Program-made: the position numbers and the translations under genes
Assembly: GCF_000006985.1 (NCBI RefSeq)
Contig: NC_002932.3
Coordinates: forward strand, 1,964,877-2,028,876
DNA from: Chlorobaculum tepidum TLS
Lineage (GTDB): Bacteria > Bacteroidota > Chlorobiia > Chlorobiales > Chlorobiaceae
Direction of reading: 5' to 3'
Length of the DNA stretch: 64,000 nt
The notes under the pieces: generated by a model
What the model saw: only the letters and a program-made list of their open reading frames with translations
What the model was told of the DNA's origin: nothing
Database searches by the model: none
Part shown: piece by piece, positions 1 through 55,449 of the stretch
How the letters are laid out: every line of letters starts with the position of its first letter
Numbering within the stretch: the stretch's first letter is position 1

Positions 1-411
1 CATCATCTCGACAAACAACACCGTTGCCCAGAACGGCCCGATTCTTCGAGAAACAAATCGATAGAGGCGATTGTCACGTTTTTCTGTACACATCGCGTCG
101 CCATCCTTCGAGCCGCGGTTATTCCACCAGTTCCAAACAAGATAGAGCAGATAGAGACCACCAAAAGGCCTGAGCCACCATGCACTGACCAAAAAAGCAG
201 CAAAAAACAAGAAAAGGCCCCGAAAAAGATAAGCACCTAAAATACCATATGTTAAAGCTGCTGGACGCTGTTTCTGGGGTAAATCAAGAACCATGGTCGC
301 AAGTACTGCCGCGTTGTCCACCGACAGTAGACCTTCGATCACAATGAGGTTGAAAATGACAAGCAGTGACGAAGCCGGGTGCTCAATGATATGCTGGACA
401 AGTTCTTGCAT
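1..411 (-). CDS. TerC-family integral membrane protein (3' part cut by window edge)
   Basis: Reading the minus strand from an ATG at 411-409 gives 137 open codons running off the left edge. The visible part has a short N-terminus (MQELVQ), then a hydrophobic segment containing the family signature EGLLSVDNAAVLATMV, then LPQKQRPAALTYGILGAYLF. The E..LSVDNA core and the R..AL.YG..GA stretch are typical of TerC/YkoY-type proteins, multi-pass inner-membrane proteins linked to tellurite resistance or metal (Mn) export. The gene follows kup on the same strand after an 87-base gap, so co-transcription is possible. Its 3' end lies outside the window, so full length and completeness are unknown. Family call is firm; substrate is not shown by the sequence. 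Confidence 0.8.
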   Translation of the reverse strand, partial: MQELVQHIIEHPASSLLVIFNLIVIEGLLSVDNAAVLATMVLDLPQKQRPAALTYGILGAYLFRGLFLFFAAFLVSAWWLRPFGGLYLLYLVWNWWNNRGSKDGDAMCTEKRDNRLYRFVSRRIGPFWATVLFVEMM

Positions 412-30858: not shown

Positions 30859-32547
30859 TCAAGCCTTTTTGTAGCGGTTCAGCGCACTGACGATGGCCTT
30901 GATGGAGGCAAGGCTGATGTTCGAGTCGATACCGGAACCGCACACCAGCGCCACGTCATCGAACGAGAGGCGAATGTAGGCGATGGCCATCGCGTCCGAG
31001 CTGTGGCCGATGGCGTGCTCCGCGTATTCGTCGACATGGAAATCGATGCCGGTGTGGCTCACCATGCCGCGCACGAAGGCGTCCAGCGGGCCGTTGCCTT
31101 TGGCCCTGAAGCTGAACTCGCCCTGTGGCCCAACCATCGAGGCGCTGACGATCGTCGCCACCTCGTCGTTGCGATCCGGGTCTTCGTCGCTCCAGCTGAT
31201 GGTGCACTTCTTCATCAGATAGGGCTCGGTTGCGCCGATGTACTCCTTCTGGAACAGCTCGTGAATCTGCTCGGCGCTCAGCTCCTCGCCGGTGCGGTCG
31301 GTCACCTCCTGAACAACCGCACCGAAATCTGGCTGCATCCACTTCGGGATCTGAATACCATACTCCTTTTCGAGCACATAGGCTATGCCTCCCTTGCCCG
31401 ACTGGCTGTTGATCCGGACGATGGCCTCGTAGTTGCAACCAACATCCTCGGGATCGATCGGCAGATAGGGCACGTCCCACACGCCGTCGGCAGCCCGCTG
31501 GTGCGCTTTCATTCCCTTGCTGATCGCGTCCTGGTGCGAACCGGAAAAGGCGGTGTAGACCAGATCGCCCGAGTAGGGATGGCGCGGATGCACCGTCATG
31601 CGGGTGCAGCGAGAGTAGACCTGCTTGATATGCGGCAGGTTGGAGAAATCGAGCTCCGGATCGACACCTTGCGTCATCAGGTTCAGCGCCATGATGATAA
31701 TGTCCATGTTGCCACACCGCTCGCCGTTGCCGAACAGGGCACCTTCGATGCGATCCGCCCCGGCCATCACCGCCAGCTCGGAGGTCGCCACCGCCGTGCC
31801 GCGGTCGTTATGGGCATGCACACTGAGGAGCACCGCGTCGCGATTCTTGATGTGGCGGCAAAACCACTCGATGCGGTCGGCATAGACGTTCGGCGTCGAA
31901 AGCTCGACCGTCGAAGGCAGGTTCAGGATCACCTTGTTGGTGGCCGATGCGCCCCACTCGTCCATCACCGCGTGGCACACGTCCAGCGCGTACTCCAGCT
32001 CGGTGCCAGTGAAGCTTTCAGGGCTGTACTCGAAGCGGATGCCTGGATTGCCGCTCGCCTCCTTCAGCTCGCGCACCAGCCGCGTTCCGGCGACGGCGAT
32101 GGTGATGATCTCCTCGCGGCTCATGCGGAACACTATGTCGCGCTGCTGGCGCGAGGTGGAGTTGTAGAGGTGCACGATGGCGTTCTTCGCGCCCTTGATC
32201 GCCTCGAAGGTGCGGCGGATGAGGTGCTCGCGCGACTGCGTCAACACCTGGATGCTCACGTCGTCAGGAATGAGATTGTTTTCGATCAGCTTGCGCACAA
32301 AGGCGAACTCCGTGGCCGAAGCCGACGGGAAGCCCACCTCGATCTCCTTGAAGCCAACCGATACCAGCAGCCTGAAAAACTCCACCTTCTCATCGACGCT
32401 CATCGGAATCGGAAGCGCCTGGTTGCCATCGCGCAGATCGACGCTGCACCAGATCGGCGCTTTGGTAATGGTCTTGTCCGGCCAGGTTCTGTCTTTCAGC
32501 CCAACCGTCGGATAGGGTGCGTATTTCTTATAATTCATCGTACTCAT
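30859..32547 (-). CDS. leuA: 2-isopropylmalate synthase (long form)
   Basis: 562 residues, the long LeuA type found in actinobacteria and fungi. It has a DmpG/HMGL-like TIM barrel (KAPIWCSVDLRDGNQALPIPM with catalytic RDGNQ), the metal-binding HAHNDRGTAVATSELA and a GALFGNGERCGN loop. A C-terminal LeuA regulatory domain (from about residue 425) binds leucine for feedback inhibition. It condenses 2-oxoisovalerate and acetyl-CoA in leucine synthesis. A start at 32547 or at the ATG three codons later are both possible. The leader region upstream carries a leucine-rich ORF and a terminator, indicating attenuation. Confidence 0.96.
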   Translation of the reverse strand: MSTMNYKKYAPYPTVGLKDRTWPDKTITKAPIWCSVDLRDGNQALPIPMSVDEKVEFFRLLVSVGFKEIEVGFPSASATEFAFVRKLIENNLIPDDVSIQVLTQSREHLIRRTFEAIKGAKNAIVHLYNSTSRQQRDIVFRMSREEIITIAVAGTRLVRELKEASGNPGIRFEYSPESFTGTELEYALDVCHAVMDEWGASATNKVILNLPSTVELSTPNVYADRIEWFCRHIKNRDAVLLSVHAHNDRGTAVATSELAVMAGADRIEGALFGNGERCGNMDIIIMALNLMTQGVDPELDFSNLPHIKQVYSRCTRMTVHPRHPYSGDLVYTAFSGSHQDAISKGMKAHQRAADGVWDVPYLPIDPEDVGCNYEAIVRINSQSGKGGIAYVLEKEYGIQIPKWMQPDFGAVVQEVTDRTGEELSAEQIHELFQKEYIGATEPYLMKKCTISWSDEDPDRNDEVATIVSASMVGPQGEFSFRAKGNGPLDAFVRGMVSHTGIDFHVDEYAEHAIGHSSDAMAIAYIRLSFDDVALVCGSGIDSNISLASIKAIVSALNRYKKA

Positions 32548-32592: not shown

Positions 32593-32629
32593 GAAAAAAA
32601 GCCGCTTACCCTGAGAGGATCGCGGCTTT
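32593..32629 (-). terminator. leuA leader terminator (candidate attenuator)
   Basis: On the minus strand AAAGCCGC (32629-32622) pairs with GCGGCTTT (32605-32598), followed by a run of T. It sits 46 bases before the leuA start and 28 bases after the stop of the leucine-rich leader ORF. Its loop contains CCTCTCAGG, which can pair with leader sequence (see the leader entry). Confidence 0.85.
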
Positions 32630-32657
32630 GAATCTCAATTCCATGCAGTCAACGAAA

Positions 32658-32735
32658 CTACAATGCGCTCCCCCTCAGGCAGGTAAGGCCTGTTAGCGAT
32701 AGCGCAAGAAGAAGCATGTTGCTGACCGTGTTCAT
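32658..32735 (-). CDS. leuA leader peptide (leucine attenuator)
   Basis: A 25-codon frame, ATG at 32735-32733, stop TAG at 32660-32658. Eight of the 25 residues are leucine, including three consecutive CTT codons at residues 8-10 and two CTA codons. The peptide begins MNTVSNMLLLALSL. A promoter-like pair lies upstream and a Rho-independent terminator 28 bases downstream, before leuA. CCTGAGGGG inside leader codons 19-22 (32679-32671) can form nine pairs (one G-U) with CCTCTCAGG (32618-32610) in the terminator loop, a possible antiterminator. Ribosome stalling at leucine codons would then allow leuA transcription. The peptide also resembles a short hydrophobic signal sequence, so attenuation is inference from the arrangement. 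Confidence 0.7.
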   Translation of the reverse strand: MNTVSNMLLLALSLTGLTCLRGSAL

Positions 32736-32779
32736 ACAAGATAGAGTACCGTTCAATCGGCTGTACGAAAAGTTGGGAC

Positions 32780-32807
32780 AATATAAACAATTCTTTTACC
32801 TCTGCAA
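32780..32807 (-). promoter_or_regulatory. candidate promoter of the leuA leader
   Basis: On the minus strand TTGCAG (32807-32802), a 16-base spacer and TATATT (32785-32780). Transcription would start near 32772, about 37 bases before the leader ATG. Sigma-70-like match by eye only. Confidence 0.5.
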
Positions 32808-55258: not shown

Positions 55259-55449
55259 AGCGCAATTGTTTTTGAGTGAAGTCATACTGTGCAAATGGCG
55301 GAAAACAGGTATTGCGCATCCCTGCTTTCACGGCTTCATGCGGACGCACGAACACCATTCGCGTTTTAGGACACGCAAGGTAAAAATTTTTCTTTTGTTT
55401 TCCAACGCCTCGAATACAGCATTGTTAACAGCCTTTTTACAACCATCAA

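Follow-up and report, generated by a model that had tools for sequence, protein, structure and literature searches.

A predicted leucine attenuator upstream of leuA in the green sulfur bacterium Chlorobaculum tepidum and its relatives

Upstream of leuA in Chlorobaculum tepidum TLS, a short leucine-rich open reading frame is followed by a T-tailed hairpin, and the question raised by this locus is whether the two belong to a transcription attenuator. The locus lies on the minus strand of the analyzed 64,000-nucleotide stretch of the genome (the window), to which coordinates refer unless stated otherwise. An earlier note, based on the letters of the window alone, had read the layout as ribosome-mediated attenuation; conserved Leu codons, terminator, antiterminator and promoter, together with the use of rare Leu codons, support this reading. 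Judged from sequence comparison, leuA is very probably preceded by a transcription attenuator in which a translating ribosome senses charged tRNA-Leu.

Layout of the region upstream of leuA

The minus-strand order of elements is TTGCAG-16-TATATT (32807-32780), a leader ATG at 32735 with its stop codon at 32660-32658, a terminator (32629-32594) and the leuA ATG at 32547. The gene that the attenuator would regulate, leuA (30859-32547), encodes a 562-residue 2-isopropylmalate synthase whose profile matches to NF002991 and TIGR00970 exceed the curated cut-offs, which identifies a long-type enzyme. Judged by leuA, the closest named organisms belong to Chlorobaculum. The promoter comprises a -35 element TTGCAG (32807-32802), a 16-nt spacer and a -10 element TATATT (32785-32780), and the leader ATG lies 45-72 nt downstream of this pair, as the earlier note had placed it. 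The pattern TTGnn-(15..18)-TATNTT recurs 5' of the leader in 61 of 69 relatives, with about one occurrence expected from shuffles, and the distance from the conserved promoter pair to the leader ATG is usually 36-51 nt (69 regions). This conservation places transcription initiation upstream of the leader, with a predicted start just downstream of 32780. A simple promoter/terminator scanner listed neither the promoter nor the terminator of the leuA leader: it accepts loops of up to 8 nt, and the -35 element shares only three of six positions with TTGACA.

The leader ORF (32658-32735, minus strand; MNTVSNMLLLALSLTGLTCLRGSAL) has 25 codons, eight of which encode Leu, and contains the three consecutive CTT codons reported before. 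Codons 8-14 (CTT CTT CTT GCG CTA TCG CTA; 32694-32714), positioned from the ORF, are the putative control codons. The missing Shine-Dalgarno sequence is the chief oddity of this system. Such a sequence precedes the leader ATG in only two of the 69 regions and is lacking in the other 67. GGAG precedes the leuA start, whereas the ATG at 32735 and its equivalents are mostly without a Shine-Dalgarno sequence.

The T-tailed terminator claimed between leader and leuA is present (32594-32629, minus strand), and it begins, rather than ends, 28 nt after the leader stop codon. Its arms, AAAGCCGC (32629-32622) and GCGGCTTT (32605-32598), enclose a 16-nt loop and are followed by T's down to 32594. The hairpin constitutes segments 3 and 4 of the putative attenuator. 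Segment 3 (32610-32629, minus strand), which spans the 5' arm and loop, doubles as the 3' half of the antiterminator assigned by folding and comparison. Its 5' half is segment 2 (CCTGAGGGGGAGCGC; 32665-32679, minus strand), which lies within the last leader codons. Segment 1 (CAGGC, 32688-32692, minus strand) can pair with GCCTG (32680-32676) in the single-sequence fold and may form an anti-antiterminator hairpin.

Conservation of the leader in the Chlorobiaceae

The comparison used 73 distinct Chlorobiaceae leuA upstream regions, drawn from the class and from a genome collection, of which 72 are complete; many come from related MAGs, so that they are not 73 independent observations. Leader ORFs were picked by position, and Leu content was used only in the three regions where two ORFs fitted. 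A Leu-rich leader occupies the equivalent position in 69 of the 72 complete regions, always as an ATG ORF of 18-37 codons with 4-12 Leu codons and a stop codon 52-82 nt before the terminator end. The alignment proposed in the earlier note thus finds the Leu codons retained. Pooled over the leaders, Leu accounts for 27.8% of codons; the two remaining frames have 10.1% and 3.7%, and ordinary genes (13 genes of the C. tepidum genome) 8.8%. Runs of Leu codons are kept in 67 of 69 leaders, and 62 have three or four in succession. Codon choice is also unusual in the tepidum-like group: CTA, which is scarcely used in genes (0.9% of Leu codons), rises to 24.7% in the leaders, and CTT rises from 14% to 42%. 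Leader peptides are strongly divergent between clades except at Leu (for example, MHQKSLNRLPEGLSLLLLSTEAPGGGAF and MREPVINLCSLLLILLIPALPLCGVGRKSGAL). Variable columns within the tepidum group fall mostly at third codon positions (15, against 6 and 4 at the others).

Within the window, 598 ORFs of 15-40 codons that begin with ATG were screened, both strands included, and this leader, counted twice through an internal ATG, is the only one with at least 28% Leu. In 400 base shuffles, the leader's Leu codon count was never reached (p about 0.0025, the floor of the test). A chance origin is excluded because the leader is conserved in relatives.

The terminator is found in every complete region except L079 (72 regions), and its outer stem is 97% paired in Chlorobium. 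Pair-preserving changes occur at stem pair 7 (G-C, G-U, A-U) and in the upper stem (C-G, T-A, T-G). Three relatives among the 72 complete regions are without a leader. One region (L071) amounts to a natural leader deletion, in which a tRNA-Asn gene (L071:2336-2408) abuts the old leuA terminator. The same tRNA-Asn gene directly precedes the leader in L068 and L058. Region L088 has kept the terminator and lost the leader, and L079 has neither. The leuA-like gene of two Chlorobiales outside the Chlorobiaceae encodes a different enzyme type and is without such a leader. An Elusimicrobia MAG (L095) carries a leuA 60% identical to that of C. tepidum, possibly a result of gene transfer; its upstream region yielded no Leu-rich leader. 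As far as sequences can speak, this comparison of leuA upstream regions is close to decisive in favor of an attenuator.

Competing folds and the predicted response to leucine

The nine-position pairing described earlier between the leader and the terminator loop is found as CCTGAGGGG (32679-32671) with CCTCTCAGG (32618-32610), including one G-U pair. A point missed by the earlier note is that the pairing reaches beyond the loop into the terminator 5' arm, adding CGC with GCG in C. tepidum, and it therefore constitutes a real antiterminator. The Chlorobium equivalent is CTCTAAGGGGAGGTG with CGCCAGCCTCTTAGGG. Folded singly and without the terminator 3' arm, a state like that of a nascent transcript, the sequences paired the end of the leader ORF with the terminator loop and 5' arm. 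The two folds are mutually exclusive, and withholding the 3' arm switches one to the other. Under ribosome constraints, the folds of 66 of 69 regions had 8-9 paired bases in the terminator 3' arm; with the 3' arm unavailable, segments 2 and 3 formed a mean of 16.5 pairs, against 9.5 when the leader tail was shuffled.

The mean energy of the antiterminator duplex is -21.2 kcal/mol across the family, compared with -15.5 kcal/mol for shuffled segments, and cognate segments out-paired swapped ones in 5000 of 5000 permutations, a test that still contains relatedness. For 39 distinct Chlorobium sequences, five others with a shifted register having been left out, 84.8% of cells in a fixed register are standard pairs, against 43-59% after sliding by 1-3 bases. 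Reshuffling segments among sequences gave 83% paired, and 50 of 2000 shuffles reached the observed value. The register is therefore strongly conserved, with no more than moderate true covariation. Of the two stems in which the earlier note proposed to look for compensatory changes, the terminator shows pair-preserving variation; in the antiterminator, covariation adds only modestly to conservation. RNAalifold barely recovered the antiterminator from a MAFFT alignment of the whole family because of gaps between clades; it is seen per clade, per sequence and in the fixed register. The earlier note had named loss of the Leu codons or of the terminator/antiterminator pairing in relatives as evidence against attenuation, and both are conserved across the family. 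The hairpin between segments 1 and 2 (GAGC-n6-GCTC in Chlorobium, CAGGC-GCCTG in C. tepidum) is 80% paired in register against 38-51% slid in Chlorobium; it is energetically weak across the family (mean z -0.54), and its support in all clades is partial.

These elements suggest the following course of events. A ribosome would translate the 25-codon leader on the nascent transcript. With ample leucine it would reach the stop codon and cover segment 2, the terminator (3:4) would form, and most transcripts would end near 32594. With leucine scarce, the ribosome would stall at codons 8-14 and leave segment 2 free to pair with the terminator loop and 5' arm, so that no terminator forms and leuA is transcribed. 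The 1:2 hairpin may hold segment 2 closed when no ribosome is stalled. The footprint of a ribosome extends about 12-13 nt past its A site. For a ribosome decoding codons 8-14, the edge would lie at or before ORF nt 54, leaving segment 2 (nt 57-71) exposed, and a ribosome at the stop codon (nt 76-78) would cover it. Because segment 2 is inside the last leader codons, a ribosome at the stop codon itself could mask it.

Could the leader instead encode a functional small hydrophobic, perhaps membrane, protein, with the hairpin as that small gene's ordinary terminator? A short, Leu-rich peptide such as this would suit that reading, and the preference for third codon positions in the tepidum group (15:6:4) is what such a gene might show. 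This explanation is nevertheless very improbable, as the non-Leu residues diverge between clades, lengths range from 18 to 37, RNA pairing constrains the 3' end of the ORF and rare Leu codons are enriched; the ORF also has no Shine-Dalgarno sequence and its peptide no family match. We regard as similarly implausible that leucine or a regulatory protein binds the RNA directly, as in a riboswitch or protein-binding leader, and that translation of the ORF is incidental. It has a precedent in the actinobacterial LEU elements, which carry Leu-rich leaders and have been argued to be protein-binding sites (PMC1262725). Against it, the first half of the leader conserves Leu codons rather than RNA letters, and the alignment shows no highly conserved unpaired nucleotides beyond the two competing stems. 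A search of Rfam, covering T-box, riboswitch and amino-acid leader families, gave no relevant match at the gathering threshold or at E up to 10, and thus no riboswitch or T-box.

It is scarcely credible that the terminator serves genes further upstream and that the Leu-rich ORF arose by chance. The terminator of L071 directly follows a tRNA-Asn gene, so it can act as an ordinary one. The comparative data already contradict this explanation, however, since conservation across the family extends to ORF, promoter and antiterminator alike, and the ORF is unique in the window. Ribosome-mediated attenuation remains the reading that we prefer for leuA.

Known systems and a second candidate before ilvD

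The enterobacterial attenuator of leuABCD, leuL, is the Rfam family Leu_leader. Like leuL, the Chlorobiaceae element lies before an isopropylmalate synthase gene, has a run of Leu codons in a short leader ORF that uses rare ones, and sets an antiterminator in competition with a terminator. It differs in that the leader has no Rfam match and no Shine-Dalgarno sequence, segment 2 lies within the last leader codons, and the C. tepidum leuA is of the long type and separate from leuBCD, which reside in the ilv operon. Another family in the window did match Rfam, the known S6-S18-Chlorobi ribosomal protein leader (55289-55364, minus strand, 71.8 bits).

A leader ORF with a Leu run also precedes leuA in the actinobacterial LEU element, which has been described as a pseudoknot with a base stem formed by the Leu codons and the Shine-Dalgarno box of leuA (PMC1262725). 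The Chlorobiaceae element is set apart from that published description by its T-tailed terminator between leader and leuA. In Streptomyces, a leuA leader of similar appearance responded to mutation in ways that did not fit classical attenuation (PMC1262725), a warning that anatomy by itself is no proof of attenuation. Outside the Proteobacteria, the ilvB-OMG, ilvB and ilvB-II motifs have leader ORFs rich in branched-chain codons with predicted terminators and antiterminators; in contrast to the leuA leader, they occur at other genes and in other lineages, have other sequences and involve Ile/Val/Leu/Thr rather than Leu alone, and leader-peptide control of ilvB has been discussed for several groups (PMC10272879). 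Leader-peptide attenuation has been proposed from transcriptome data upstream of amino-acid biosynthesis operons in Flavobacterium psychrophilum, of the neighboring phylum Bacteroidota, and the passages of that study consulted here name no such leuA element (PMC9723704). A survey of 2010 stated that leader-peptide attenuation had, to its authors' knowledge, been shown only in Proteobacteria and Actinobacteria, and added Firmicutes (PMC2965389). No description of a leuA attenuator in Chlorobi was found in the accessible literature; subscription papers, for instance one on attenuation regulation by Lopatovskaya et al. (cited in PMC4833913), may contain one. The mechanism is already known, and the proposed leuA case is well supported in the Chlorobiaceae, for which the literature found holds no earlier report of it.

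A leader rich in Ile, Val and Leu codons before the operon ilvD-ilvB-ilvN-ilvC-leuB-leuC-leuD-cimA is probably a second attenuator, and the analogy speaks for attenuation at leuA as well. The main genes of this operon were identified, and ilvN and leuD were assigned by position and size. The leader region, defined by an ORF and a terminator-like hairpin, lies upstream of ilvD on the minus strand (L112:18640-18860; genome C1 about 622640-622860). The ORF, ending in LLSGITLTVSVPLVHVRIIVA, is followed by CCCAAGTCC, a possible antiterminator, and then by the terminator-like GGCTTCGGG-acaggcagg-CCCGGACTTTTG. In most of 30 relatives the leader ORF stops 53-63 nt before the terminator core and its last 24 codons are 38-71% Ile+Leu+Val, contents whose p-values are optimistic because the frame was selected by Ile+Leu+Val content. 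The leader is weak or marginal in L128, L136, L138 and L142, and, outside the tepidum group, scanning whole genomes for the terminator core proved too stringent to be informative. In codon content it is nearer to the ilvB-type motifs (PMC10272879) than the leuA leader is. Elsewhere in the C. tepidum genome, the region upstream of trpE showed no Trp-rich leader and no attenuator, and none was seen at hisG, which begins 27 nt after its neighbor.

On balance we lean slightly towards the view that the Chlorobiaceae possess their own branched-chain attenuation regulon, composed of two attenuators that are unrelated to each other (Leu-only at leuA, Ile/Val/Leu at ilvDBNC-leuBCD-cimA), confined to the family, without relatives among known RNA families and with a leuA leader translated without a Shine-Dalgarno sequence. 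Such a regulon would, if real, point to an independent origin of classical attenuation in this phylum, and the absence of a match to known RNA families fits a repeated independent origin of the mechanism. The conserved leuA attenuator, with the probable ilv one, would place attenuation in another deep lineage and offers a concrete hypothesis for how green sulfur bacteria may control the synthesis of branched-chain amino acids.
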